Shown: piece after piece, positions 922-5,767 of the stretch | How positions within the stretch are numbered: position 1 is the first letter of the stretch | Layout of the letters: each line of letters begins with the position of its first letter | From: Streptomyces sp. TLI_235 | GTDB taxonomy: Bacteria > Actinomycetota > Actinomycetes > Streptomycetales > Streptomycetaceae | Direction: 5' to 3' | DNA length: 64,000 nt | Assembly (NCBI GenBank): GCA_002300355.1 | Contig: NSGV01000001.1 | Span: forward strand, 992,001 to 1,056,000 | Notes under the pieces: model-generated | What the model saw: the letters and a program-made list of their open reading frames with translations, nothing else | Told to the model about the DNA's origin: nothing | Databases searched by the model: none | Program-made: the position numbers and the translations under genes

Positions 922-935
922 TGTTAGCGCTAACA
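922..935. promoter_or_regulatory. Perfect 14-bp palindromic operator, copy 1
   Basis: TGTTAGCGCTAACA is a perfect palindrome lying 12 bp after the esterase stop and 225 bp before the GH127 start. The same 14 bases recur at 1099 and 5754. The central AGCGCT core is typical of LacI-family operators in Streptomyces sugar regulons. No such regulator lies in this window. Confidence 0.75.
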
Positions 936-1098
936 GAATATGGCAGCGAGCGGGGGCGCCCGTTCCGTCGCACCCCTGGACGCGACCGAGACGCCGGGGC
1001 TATAAACGTGACACTGTCGAACACGGCCGACGGCCTTCGACGCCACCCCCACCGCTCGCCGCCCACCCTTCCGGCACGCCGCTTTCCGCACGGCGTTT

Positions 1099-1112
1099 TG
1101 TTAGCGCTAACA
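1099..1112. promoter_or_regulatory. Perfect 14-bp palindromic operator, copy 2
   Basis: This is an identical copy of TGTTAGCGCTAACA, ending 47 bp before the GTG of the GH127 gene. That position suits repression by blocking RNA polymerase. With copy 1, 177 bp upstream, a looped repression complex is possible. The regulator class (LacI) is inferred from the motif shape. Confidence 0.8.
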
Positions 1113-1159
1113 GTTCATCCGCCGGTCTCCTCCCCCCACCCGGAAGGAACAGATCCCGC

Positions 1160-3859
1160 GTGTCGTCCACCCCCCTGAACCGCCGCAGCCTGCTGAAGGC
1201 CACCGGCGTGCTAGCCCTCGCACCGGCCGTCGGACTCGGCCTCGCGCCGGCGGCCGCCGAGGCCGCCGGCTCCTCGACGCAGCCGTTCGACCTCGGCCAG
1301 GTCCGGCTCACCGCCGGCCGGTTGCGCGACAACCAGGACCGCACCCTGGCGTACCTGCGCTTCGTCGACGTCGACCGCCTGCTGTACAACTTCCGCGCGA
1401 ACCACCGGCTGTCCACCAACGCCGCTGCCGCGACCGGCGGTTGGGACGCCCCGTCGTTCCCGTTCCGCACCCACGTGCAGGGGCACTTCCTCAGCGCCTG
1501 GGCCCAGGCCTACGCGGGAACGGGCGACACCGTCTGCCGCGACAAGGCCACCTACATGGTGGCCGAGCTGGCCAAGTGCCAGGCCAACAACGCCGTCCCG
1601 GGGTTCTCCGCCGGCTACCTCTCGGGCTTCCCGGAGAACGACTTCGCCCAGCTCGAGGCCGGCTCGCTGAAGAACGGCAACGTCCCCTACTACTGCGTCC
1701 ACAAGACCATGGCCGGCCTGCTCGACGTCTGGCTCCTGATGGGCAGCACCCAGGCCCGGGACGTCCTGCTGGCCATGGCCGGCTGGGTCGACCAGCGCAC
1801 CGGACGGCTCACCCAGAGCCAGATGCAGGCGCTCCTGGGCACCGAGTTCGGAGGCATGAACGAGGTGATGGCCGACCTCCACCTGCGGACCGGGGACGCC
1901 CGCTGGCTGACGGTCGCCCAACGCTTCGACCACGCCGCCGTGTTCGACCCGCTGGCCGCCGGCCAGGACCGGCTGAACGGCCTGCACGCCAACACCCAGG
2001 TGCCCAAGTGGATCGGCGCCGTCCGCGAGTACCGGGCCACCGGGACCGCGCGCTACCACGACATCGCCACCCAGGCCTGGACGATCTGCACCGGCAGGCA
2101 CACCTACGCCATCGGCGGGAACAGCCAGGCCGAGCACTTCCGCGCTCCCGACGCGATCGCCTCGCAGCTGACCAACGACAACTGCGAGCTCTGCAACTCG
2201 TACAACATGCTCAAACTCACCCGTGAGCTCTGGCAGCTGGACCCGAACCAGGCCGCGTACTTCGACTTCTACGAGCGCGCCCTGCTCAACCACGTCGTCG
2301 GCGCGCAGAACCCGGCCGACTCGCACGGGCACGTCACCTACTTCACCCCGCTGAAGCCCGGCGGCCGCCGGGGCGTGGGCCCGGCCTGGGGCGGCGGCAC
2401 CTGGAGCACCGACTACGACACCTTCTGGTGCTGCCAGGGCACCGGGATGGAGTCCAACACCAAACTGGCGGACTCCGTCTACTTCCGCGACGGCACCACC
2501 CTGATCGTCAACCTCTTCGTGCCCACGGTCCTCACCTGGGCCGAGCGCGGCCTGACGATCACCCAGACCACCGCGTACCCGGCGGAGGACACCACCACGC
2601 TCAAGGTCACCGGCGGCGCCGGCGACACCTGGTCGATGCGCATCCGCATCCCGGCCTGGACGTCCGGTGCCACCGTGAGCGTCAACGGCACGGTGCAGAA
2701 CATCGCCACCACGCCCGGCAGCTACGCCACCGTCACCCGCTCCTGGGCCTCCGGCGACACGGTGACCGTCAAGCTGCCGATGCGCATCGCGCTGCGGGCC
2801 GCCAACGACAACCCGGACGTCGCCGCGGTCACCTACGGCCCGGTCGTGCTGTGCGGCAACTACGGCTCCACCGCGCTCTCCGCGCTTCCGGTCCTCGACC
2901 CGGCGTCGATCACCCGGACCGGCAGCACGGGCCTGGCCTTCACCGCGACCGCGGGCGGCTCGTCCGTGAGCCTCGGCCCGTTCCACGACGCGCAGGGCTT
3001 CAACTACACCGTCTACTGGAACACCAGGAGCAGCGGATTCCGCCTGCTCAACGCGGGCAGCGGGCTGGTGCTCGGCGTGAAGGACATGTCCACCTCGGAC
3101 GGTGCGCCCGCCCTCCAGTGGGGCGACAGCGGCACCGCCGACCACGACTGGGCGCCCGTGGTGGACGGCACCGCGCTGCGCCTGCGCAACGCCAACAGCG
3201 GCAAGGTCCTGGGCGTGCAGAACATGTCCACCGCCGACAACGCCGCCGTGCTCCAGTGGTCGGACAACGGCACCGCCGACCACCGGTGGACCGTCGTCGA
3301 GGCGGCCGACGGCGCGCACGCCCTGCGGAACGCCAACAGCGGCAAGCTGCTCGGCATCGCCGGCGCCGCCACCGCCCAGGGCGCCTTCGCCGTGCAGGTC
3401 CCGGACAGCAGCTCGCCGACCAGCCGGTGGTGGTTCGTCCCGACCGGCACCCGGCGCATCCAGAACGTGGGCAGCGGGCTGCTGCTCGGCGTGCAGACCA
3501 TGTCGACCGCCGACGGCGCCCTGGTGATCCAGTGGGGCGACAACGGCACCGCGGACCACCTGTGGACCGCGGTGGTCGACACCGGCGGCCAACTGCGGCT
3601 CAGCAACTCCAACAGCGGCAAGGTCCTCGCCGTGGAGGGCGGCGGCACGGCCAACGGCTCCCGGATCGTCCAGTGGGCCGACAACGGCGCCGCCGACCAC
3701 CGCTGGCGCCTGCGGCACGGCGGCGGCGACACCTTCCGCATCCAGTCCGCCGTCAGCGGCCGTGTCCTCGGCATCTCCGGCGCCTCCACCTCCCAGGGCG
3801 CCCAGGTCGTCCTGTGGGACGACAACGGCACGACCGACCACCTCTGGCGCTTCCTCTGA
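1160..3859 (+). CDS. Tat-exported GH127 beta-L-arabinofuranosidase with two C-terminal ricin-type trefoils
   Basis: The 899-residue protein begins with a Tat signal (NRRSLLKAT, residues 7-15; hydrophobic stretch to about 35). The catalytic part (about 40-610) matches GH127. Glu343-Leu-Cys345 and the Cys424-Cys425 pair reproduce the Zn/Cys cluster of HypBA1 (E338, C340, C417, C418), where one Cys is the nucleophile. Residues 620-899 hold six repeats ending in QW-DNGTADH-W-like motifs, which makes two beta-trefoils; the third repeat is diverged. It should remove beta-L-arabinofuranose from plant polymers outside the cell. GGAAGGA lies before the GTG start, and two operators lie upstream. Confidence 0.9.
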
Positions 3860-3939
3860 GCCCGGCGGTACGAGCCAAAGGCGCTGGTGGCCGCCGCCGT
3901 GGCAGCGGCGGCCACCGGCCGGCGGAACCCGGTCACCGG

Positions 3940-4040
3940 TCAGCCGCGCGGGCGGGCGAACGGGGCGAAGGTCAACGGCGGGCTGGCGTTGCGCACCAGG
4001 GTCATGGCCTGCTCGGGCCACCAGGCGCCTGCCGCCGGGT
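3940..4040 (-). pseudogene. C-terminal remnant of an unidentified gene
   Basis: On the minus strand, about 33 codons read as protein-like sequence ([17 protein letters not shown] and following) and end in TGA at 3940. The likeness stops where the GH1 remnant begins on the other strand near 4036-4040. The family is not recognised. The call rests only on codon-like composition and the Trp/Pro-rich character, so it may be chance. Confidence 0.3.
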
Positions 4041-4390: not shown

Positions 4391-4521
4391 GTTTCAGCCC
4401 GACTGGAGCGACAGCGGGGAATCGGCCAGGTTCTTAGACCCGCCTCACAGGACAAGCTCGCGACCTGCTCTTTTCCGGCATGGGCGGACTCAATGAGCAG
4501 CGAATCTATCGCTGCTCCAGT

Positions 4522-4535
4522 CGAAAGTGTTGACA
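4522..4535 (+). promoter_or_regulatory. Third CGAAA box overlapping a TTGACA -35 element
   Basis: CGAAAGTGTTG (4522-4532) keeps the left half of the box. It overlaps a consensus -35 TTGACA at 4530-4535, so a protein bound here would block the promoter. No good -10 is visible 17 bp further on. This -35 lies about 200 bp before the GH11 start, which implies a long leader or a second promoter. Confidence 0.5.
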
Positions 4536-4732
4536 GCCCGTCAAGCACAGCCCAACACTGTCGCCGTCGGCAACTCGCCAACCGGCTTGGGAAGAAGTGG
4601 TGTTGAGGACGAGTCACCTCCGTGCACCACCGCGCGACGCCGGCCGGACCGACCGATCCCCTCGCGATCCCATCGCGTCGGGCGCACTCCCCCGTCTCAC
4701 CACCCCACCCATCGGCAGGACGGATCACCCCC

Positions 4733-5704
4733 ATGAGCTCCCCCCGCCCCGAGAGCCGCCGGGCCGGCCTCGGCCGGCGCACCGCAAGCATCGTGCGCGC
4801 CCTCGCGCCGGCCCTCGCGGCCGTCCTGGCCCTCCCCGGCACTGCCGAGGCGGCAACCGTCACCACCAACCAGGCCGGCACCTACGGCGGATACTTCTAC
4901 TCGTTCTGGAGCGACGGCTCCGGTGCGTCCTCGATGTCCCTGAACGGCGGCGGCAACTACAGCACTTCCTGGACCAACGTCGGCAACTTCGTGGCCGGCA
5001 AGGGCTGGCAGACCGGGTCGCGCAACCCGGTGACCTACTCGGGCACATGGAGTACCCACGGCAACGCCTACCTGGCGCTCTACGGCTGGAGCACCAACCC
5101 GCTCGTCGAGTACTACATCGTCGAGAACTACGGCTCCTACAAGCCCACCGGCACATACAAGGGCACCGTCACCAGCGACGGCGGCACGTACGACATCTAC
5201 CGGACGACGCGCTACAACGCCCCCTCCATCGAGGGCATCAAGACCTTCGACCAGTACTGGAGCGTCCGTCAGGCCAGGCGGACCGGTGGAACCATCACCA
5301 TCGGGAACCACTTCGACGCGTGGGCCGGGGCGGGCATGAACCTCGGCACCATGAACTACGAGATCATGGCCACCGAGGGCTACCAGAGCAGCGGCAGCTC
5401 CAACATCACCCTGGGCTACACCGGCGGCGGCAACGGCGGCGGCTGCACCGCGACGCTCTCCGCCGGAGCCTCATGGAGCGACCGCTACAACCTGAACGTC
5501 GCGGTCACCGGATCGAACACCTGGAAGGTGACCGTGAAAGTCCCCTCCCCGGAGAAGATCAGCTCGACCTGGAACATCAACGCGGCCTACCCCGACGCCC
5601 AGACCCTCGTCGCCACCCCCAACGGCGCGGGCAACAACTGGGGCATGACCATCATGAAGAACGGCAGCACCACCTGGCCGACGGCCTCCTGCAGCGTCAG
5701 CTGA
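4733..5704 (+). CDS. Secreted GH11 endo-1,4-beta-xylanase with CBM2-like domain
   Basis: The 323-residue protein has a signal peptide (about 1-40, ending AEA-A) and a complete GH11 jelly roll (about 41-230). The nucleophile Glu126 lies in PLVEYY and the acid/base Glu215 in [11 protein letters not shown] Gly-rich linker (TGGGNGGG) leads to a C-terminal domain of about 85 residues with paired Cys and aromatic spacing like CBM2 xylan/cellulose-binding modules. It cleaves the xylan backbone. ATG 4733 was chosen because AGGACGG precedes it. It is the only xylanase gene here with CGAAA boxes rather than the TGTTAGCGCTAACA operator. Confidence 0.95.
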
Positions 5705-5753
5705 CCCCCGTCCTGGCTCACCACGGCGCCCGGGACGCGTCCCGCTACAAAAT

Positions 5754-5767
5754 TGTTAGCGCTAACA
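5754..5767. promoter_or_regulatory. Perfect 14-bp palindromic operator, copy 3
   Basis: This is the third identical TGTTAGCGCTAACA, 55 bp before the GH10 xylanase start and thus at nearly the same distance as copy 2 from the GH127 start. Shared spacing and full identity support one regulator for GH127 and GH10. Confidence 0.8.

Follow-up and report, generated by a model that had tools for sequence, protein, structure and literature searches.

We analysed a 64-kb window (C1:992001-1056000, on contig NSGV01000001.1) of the genome of Streptomyces sp. TLI_235, which spans 9.25 Mb in 12 contigs. The window opens with an island of hemicellulose genes, and our subject is a 14-bp palindrome, TGTTAGCGCTAACA, that stands upstream of two of them. 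A scan found the 14-mer in exact form at 922-935, 1099-1112 and 5754-5767, with no further match in the 64 kb at up to three mismatches. The three copies, to which no strand is assigned, have a 16-bp core in common, TTGTTAGCGCTAACAG. The first two, O1 and O2, belong to a plus-strand gene (1160-3859) for a GH127 β-L-arabinofuranosidase with ricin-type lectin (CBM13-like) domains (PF07944, E = 1.7e-109; PF20736; PF14200). O1 (922-935) lies 11 bp past the stop codon of the preceding esterase-CBM13 gene and 5′ of a probable promoter, and O2 (1099-1112) lies between this promoter and the ribosome-binding site, in a block conserved in alignment, 47 bp before the GTG start at 1160. The third copy (5754-5767) lies 49 bp past the stop codon of a GH11 xylanase gene and 55 bp before the ATG start of a gene for a GH10 endo-xylanase with ricin-type lectin domains (5823-7295, plus strand; PF00331, E = 3.1e-121). 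A sequence-only reading of this DNA had reported the three copies and the distances of 47 and 55 bp to the GH127 and GH10 starts, and our scan and Pfam matches bear this out. It had also called the spacing equal, but the two distances are only similar, and they vary among the relatives of GH127 and GH10.

The GH10 gene is followed after 84 bp by a plus-strand gene for a GH62 α-L-arabinofuranosidase (7380-8846; PF03664, E = 7.3e-157). The 84-bp gap holds no operator, and no plus-strand terminator-like site was found within 4300-7420. GH62 is probably co-transcribed with GH10, and because the short gap between them lacks a site, the copy at 5754 is probably the operator for the pair. The GH11 xylanase gene (plus strand) is placed at 4733-5704; its Pfam match (PF00457, E = 1.6e-77) covers 4622-5701, and the ATG at 4733 is our choice of start within a longer open reading frame, 4622-5704. 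Directly 5′ of GH127 is a gene for an esterase of the PHB-depolymerase type (window 2-910, C1:991498-992910), which carries ricin-type lectin domains, as do the GH127, GH10 and GH62 enzymes of this island. Between GH127 and GH11, at 4048-4299, the C-terminal end of a GH1 glycosidase stands alone (PF00232, profile positions 372-446, E = 1.9e-30); it is probably a gene remnant.

The 14-mer is very probably a real operator. When the window was shuffled, the mean number of matches at up to three mismatches was 0.32, and three matches were reached in 1 of 100 shuffles. From the variants of the 14-mer found in the same genome at up to two mismatches, we wrote a degenerate form, TGTKARCGYTMACA, which recovers the same three places in the window and gave no match in 100 window shuffles. 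Genome-wide, the 14-mer occurs at 13 places at up to two mismatches, five of them exact (2 places for the reversed pattern), and TGTKARCGYTMACA without mismatch also occurs at 13. The reversed form of TGTKARCGYTMACA occurs nowhere in this genome and once in a sample of 70 genomes of the genus (in G067). That the 14-mer arose as a chance palindrome or a dispersed repeat has next to no probability: besides these controls, the sites are specific in gene position and are conserved. At the level of sequence, both origins are refuted.

All 13 TGTKARCGYTMACA sites of the genome lie at arabinose or hemicellulose genes. Three are those of the window (two at GH127, one at GH10). Elsewhere on C1, sites at 354955 and 355224 belong to a gene for a GH54-type arabinofuranosidase (abf) and a divergent gene for a YtfQ-like sugar-binding protein. 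On C2, there are two sites at a ChvE-like sugar-binding protein gene with its permease gene (1489731 and 1489833) and one at araB (1500067). On C3, sites lie at genes for an AbfB-domain protein (920967), GH62 enzymes (945947 and 994195, the latter also facing a GH36 gene 0.5 kb off) and a second GH54-type enzyme (1012358), and at a GH43/GH35 reading frame (999975). For a few of these sites the open reading frame caller set the start codon at or past the site, which leaves no exact distance. With one mismatch allowed, TGTKARCGYTMACA has five further places (1 for the reversed control): 75 bp before the lacI gene at C2:1500998-1502032, 149 bp before the C3:945947 site, C1:571026, C1:3668302 and C4:218321. 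The sequence-only reading had proposed such a genome scan and had weighed whether the 14-mer might be frequent and unrelated to carbohydrate genes; every copy, among the five exact and the 13 degenerate ones, is at a gene with a role in using arabinose or hemicellulose.

Two oddities of C3 lie near these genes. At C3:997321-999987 (L019, 17322-19988), adjoining an arabinose site, one frame fuses the N-terminal half of a GH43 enzyme to a GH35 enzyme that lacks its N-terminus, and the C-terminal half of GH43 is in a different frame; this may reflect gene decay, fusion or an assembly error. Near the C3 hemicellulase genes (L017/L018, C3:921455-941000), frames recur that agree in all of their first 50 residues (C3:921455 with 926968 and 923925 with 925695, among others); they look transposase-like by eye only.

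We found 19 LacI-family DNA-binding domains in the genome, in a list that scored 150 of 158 candidates and is therefore possibly incomplete. One of them is encoded by the lacI gene at C2:1500998-1502032 (minus strand), which adjoins araA, araD and araB (C2:1495905-1499949) and specifies PF00356 and PF13377 domains. In alignment, the recognition helix of this protein is VSHQTVSRVLN where E. coli LacI has VSYQTVSRVVN. It is the only lac-like recognition helix among the 19; the other 18 have no Q at that place. The helix starts VSHQTVSR in 79 of 80 relatives with at least 58% identity and VSYQTVSR in the remaining one. Among paralogues encoded in the loci of these relatives, VSHQTVSRVL is kept in 10 of 10 at 51-54% identity and in neither of two at 33-36%. 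The best match in the PDB is 9nt3, 'Ancestral LacI Transcription Factor' (E = 2.7e-82), followed by lac repressor entries (4rzs, 1jyf and others) at about E = 2e-51. The best NCBIfam model, NF007075, is listed as LacI family and is, we assume, the lac repressor model; the protein scores 287.6 bits, under the cut-off of 340. L-arabinose has the ring configuration of D-galactose minus the sixth carbon, and a lac-like pocket might accept it.

To place this regulator, we compared the 70 genomes of the genus and 80 named loci that contain it, the best 80 of 187, from Kitasatospora, Streptomyces, Streptacidiphilus, Hamadaea, Actinomadura, Actinocrinis and others. L-arabinose isomerase is encoded in 50 of the 70 genomes (partially in G021, in two pieces in G040). 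TGTKARCGYTMACA is present in all 50 araA genomes, at 3-20 sites each (median 10, total 474), and in none of the other 20 (Fisher 6e-18, relatedness ignored). Relatives of the regulator (E <= 1e-90) occur in 51 genomes, 50 of which have sites, and sites are absent from the 19 genomes that lack a relative. The exact 14-mer follows the same division (46/51 and 0/19).

The named loci hold 159 exact TGTKARCGYTMACA sites, compared with none for the reversed pattern and none for 30 shuffled palindromes. When sites with at most one mismatch were counted within about 700 bp upstream, they preceded ChvE genes in 22 of 22 cases, YtfQ genes in 18 of 21, araB in 49 of 60, and lacI itself in 54 of 79 (33 without mismatch). 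Among the enzyme genes, the counts were 17/18 and 7/8 for two GH54 queries, 5/6 for GH127, 3/4 for GH10 and 2/6 for GH62. No site was found before araA (0/55), araD (0/55), the permease gene gguB (0/23) or GH11 (0/2); araA, araD and gguB, mostly internal genes of operons, serve as negative controls. In Streptomyces sp. G-G2 (L116), a single stretch of 20 kb contains GH10, GH127, GH54, lacI, YtfQ and araBDA, interspersed with sites, and in K. phosalacinea NRRL B-16228 (L129) an exact 14-mer lies between lacI and GH127.

Could a different LacI-family protein read the 14-mer? The gene at C3:980215-981450, for instance, adjoins the C3 hemicellulase cluster and is 13 kb from the exact site at C3:994195, and the domain list might have missed others. 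However, the product of the C3 gene has the recognition helix VSRSTVSYTLS, unlike the lac type, on which ground we rejected it as the regulator, and the gene does not adjoin araBDA. The C2 protein, by contrast, co-occurs with the sites over the 70 genomes and in the 80 named loci, and we give any other LacI-family reader a small chance. The sequence-only reading had postulated one LacI-type regulator; the genome-wide and comparative evidence supports this and places the gene outside the window. Eight genomes (G067, G032, G039, G003, G004, G026, G048 and G060) have two or three regulator copies that are 79-85% identical to the one described here, and these copies perhaps read the same operators.

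The closest known system is AraQ. According to the sections on AraQ in PMC5928203, this LacI-type protein goes with araBDA both in bifidobacteria and in three other actinobacterial families, where its regulon takes in an ABC transporter; outside bifidobacteria it is predicted in Arthrobacter, Geodermatophilus and Stackebrandtia, with regulons of araBDA plus araFGH only. The AraQ portions of PMC6882875 give its operator core as TGTGAGC><GCTCACA and state that its effector was not found in vitro. Like AraQ, the C2 protein belongs to the LacI family, its gene is linked to araBDA (araB is near lacI in many of the 80 named loci), and operators precede araBDA (C2:1500067) and an ABC sugar transporter (C2:1489731/1489833). 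The palindrome frame is the same as that of the AraQ site, TGTGAGCGCTCACA; G is accepted at half-site position 4, yet T is preferred (294 T versus 184 G in 480 half-sites). Unlike the AraQ regulons, the one described here extends to GH127, GH10-GH62, GH62 and GH54-type enzymes. The system fits the AraQ type; its own marks are the preference for T in the operator and the reach of the regulon to arabinoxylan enzymes that are secreted.

The likeness to AraQ raises the question of whether the sites belong to a global regulator of carbon or central metabolism and not to an arabinose-specific switch. In bifidobacteria, AraQ reads a closely similar motif, TGTGAGCGCTCACA, and, in the parts of PMC6882875 and PMC5928203 that deal with it, controls glycolytic genes. 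In the present genome, none of the 13 sites is at a glycolytic gene, and not one site occurs in the 20 genomes that lack araA. We therefore consider global control very improbable.

Other LacI-family systems resemble this one in part. The recognition helix is like that of the E. coli lac repressor (HQTVSR versus YQTVSR), and the operator departs from the symmetric lac operator at a single position of each half-site, base pair 4. Unlike the lac repressor, the C2 protein has no tetramerisation tail, scores under the NF007075 cut-off and is associated with arabinose and not lactose genes. In the account of Bifidobacterium regulons in PMC5928203, as far as it concerns them, the LacI-family proteins BauR1 and BauR2 control hypBA1 and hypBA2, the latter a GH127 gene. 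In both cases a LacI-family protein would control GH127; BauR1 and BauR2 regulate a local β-arabino-oligosaccharide cluster, whereas GH127 in the window has its operator in common with araBDA and a xylanase gene. A literature search, with most subscription journals outside it, returned no match to the 14-mer, its 12-bp core or related strings, and no streptomycete description of this system.

Based on these results, we propose, with a probability of about 0.88, that TGTTAGCGCTAACA serves as operator for a LacI-family repressor that responds to arabinose, the product of the minus-strand gene C2:1500998-1502032 adjoining araBDA. We infer direct binding, the negative sign, the dimeric state and the inducer. 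When arabinose is absent, the repressor, probably as a dimer, would sit on operators just downstream of, or around, the promoters of araBDA, of sugar transporters and of secreted arabinose-stripping enzymes (GH127, GH10-GH62, GH62 and GH54-type), whose substrates would be arabinoxylan and related glycans. L-arabinose, or a catabolic or oligosaccharide derivative of it, would enter the cell and bind the repressor, and the whole gene set would be released. The sequence-only reading had suggested an arabinoxylan or arabinose signal; the genome-wide and comparative evidence supports the link to arabinose, and L-arabinose or its derivative is the probable inducer.

Several points weigh against this proposal. 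Our searches turned up no data on binding, expression or induction in this organism. Because the sets of 70 genomes and 80 loci overlap and their members are related, the counts are not independent events. The co-occurrence of araA and the regulator is too tight to separate, by itself, the named protein from any other arabinose-linked regulator. One genome, G062, has a 52% identical regulator relative and neither araA nor a site. Another, G041, has 10 sites with regulators that are only 52-56% identical to the C2 protein, and thus close paralogues may share the operator code. In the named loci, 11 of 60 araB, 4 of 6 GH62 and 25 of 79 lacI genes have no site within the limits used, and 141 of the 159 exact sites could be assigned to queried genes, which leaves 18 unexplained. 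The araB site of the genome itself, TGTTAACGTTCACA, is three letters off the 14-mer. Finally, the ChvE-like and YtfQ-like transporters may be arabinose transporters, a role given to them by position alone.

The GH127 upstream region gives some insight into how repression might work. A site (up to two mismatches) is found upstream of 19 of 20 GH127 relatives, the exception being L198, which is 66% identical, and the nearest site is 160-397 bp before the match start. Alignment of 12 upstream regions brings out conserved blocks at a promoter (TGGAC, spacer, TATAA), at the operator and at the ribosome-binding site. The TGGAC-N-TATAA pattern is present in 13 of 19 GH127 upstream regions, a set that includes the one in the window. 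In the window, this block corresponds to a probable sigma-70-type promoter at 977-1006 on the plus strand (TGGACG, 18 nt, TATAAA). We read the promoter from conservation because a consensus promoter scan found none near the GH127 or GH10 operators. The distance from promoter to downstream operator varies among the GH127 regions from fewer than 10 to more than 100 bases, a range compatible with a roadblock and with a loop alike.

The sequence-only reading had noted that the two copies 177 bp apart would allow looping. It is possible, though unlikely, that the copies at 922 and 1099 loop the DNA through a tetramer, as in the lac operon. The position of the promoter is in keeping with this idea: it lies between the two operators in 7 of the 8 GH127 regions that have two, the window among them. 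However, 11 of the 19 regions have one operator only, and the spacings in the eight two-operator regions, the window included (177, 298, 273, 41, 358, 355, 201 and 298 bp), range from 41 to 358 bp with no helical phasing detected (Rayleigh p 0.27-0.83, n = 8). The protein also speaks against it. The C2 LacI has only 7 residues beyond the point that matches residue 329 of E. coli LacI, and it ends before the region of the LacI tetramer helix, which we take to be at about residues 340-360. The C-terminal tail of its 80 relatives has a median of 6 residues and exceeds 25 in two; some tails are short or broken. Because phasing is lacking and the protein ends before the tetramer helix, repression by blocking is more likely than lac-type looping.

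The GH10 operator is conserved as well, and it meets a second kind of site. An operator is upstream of 25 of 30 GH10 relatives, with the nearest 69-260 bp before the match start (one weak exception, 539 bp). A GH62 match follows GH10 in 29 of the 30 loci, and in 14 of those 29 a site lies between the two. We split the loci into two types by the distance to the GH62 match, a split made after the sites had been seen. In 25 loci of the type found in the window, the GH62 match is about 1 kb or more away (one locus has no GH62 match in the stretch), and 24 have a site no more than 260 bp away; the remaining locus, L220, has one between GH10 and GH62 instead. In the five loci of the other type, the GH62 match is 0.5-0.6 kb away, and one has a site, the weak one at 539 bp. 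Two GH10 paralogues of the same genome differ from the window gene: the first, at C1:3689032 and 90% identical, lacks an arabinose-type site within 800 bp; the second, at C1:910285, carries GGAAACTTTCG, of the xylan type, in its place.

Xylan-type, BxlR-like sites are also present in the window. BxlR of Streptomyces sp. SirexAA-E is a LacI-family regulator of GH10 and GH11 xylanases, and the text on BxlR in PMC12772271 ties CGAANNTTTCG to it before both kinds of gene. The present system would be similar in placing a GH10 xylanase under LacI-family control, but its operator differs from CGAANNTTTCG. Within window positions 1-12000, CGAANNTTTCG has an exact match at 4380 (CGAAAGTTTCG) and a one-mismatch match at 4357 (CGAAACTTTTG), together spanning 4357-4390 without assigned strand; both are upstream of GH11, and none is at GH127 or GH10. 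The site at 4380 is the sole exact CGAAASTTTCG of the genome. A related pattern, CGAAANTTTCG, occurs with at most one mismatch within 1.5 kb upstream in 13 of the 25 window-type GH10 loci, for a total of 19 in 37.5 kb, where a background of 14 in 1.54 Mb predicts 0.34. Twelve of these 13 loci also have the arabinose operator before GH10. No CGAAANTTTCG site was found in the other 12 window-type loci, in the stretch examined, or in the five loci of the other type.

These findings raise a tentative idea, which we consider possible and somewhat doubtful, that GH11-GH10-GH62 is a two-key arabinoxylan unit, in which a xylan-sensing, BxlR-like repressor would act on the promoter before GH11 and the arabinose repressor would be a second lock, independent of the first, at 5754 within the transcription unit. 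If so, GH10 and GH62 would be produced only if the xylan under attack bears arabinose, and GH11 alone would answer plain xylan. The BxlR part is a lead only, because no lacI gene lies within 2 kb of a CGAAASTTTCG site (up to one mismatch) in this genome, where the wider CGAANNTTTCG was not searched genome-wide. In five relatives (L203, L211, L213, L215 and L223), GH10 is preceded on its own strand by another LacI-family gene, whose product is 34-46% identical to the C2 protein, and a CGAAANTTTCG-type site separates the two genes; the LacI-family gene is a candidate local xylan regulator.

In sum, a likely single transcription factor and its operator code tie arabinose catabolism to secreted enzymes that debranch arabinoxylan. 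The linked set includes a GH10 xylanase, a family that is thought to be under BxlR in Streptomyces sp. SirexAA-E, according to the part of PMC12772271 on that regulator. The operator code is simple enough that enzyme sets should be predictable in related genomes. Additionally, because the regulator is so close to LacI, an arabinose-inducible, lac-like switch would be a realistic tool for streptomycetes.

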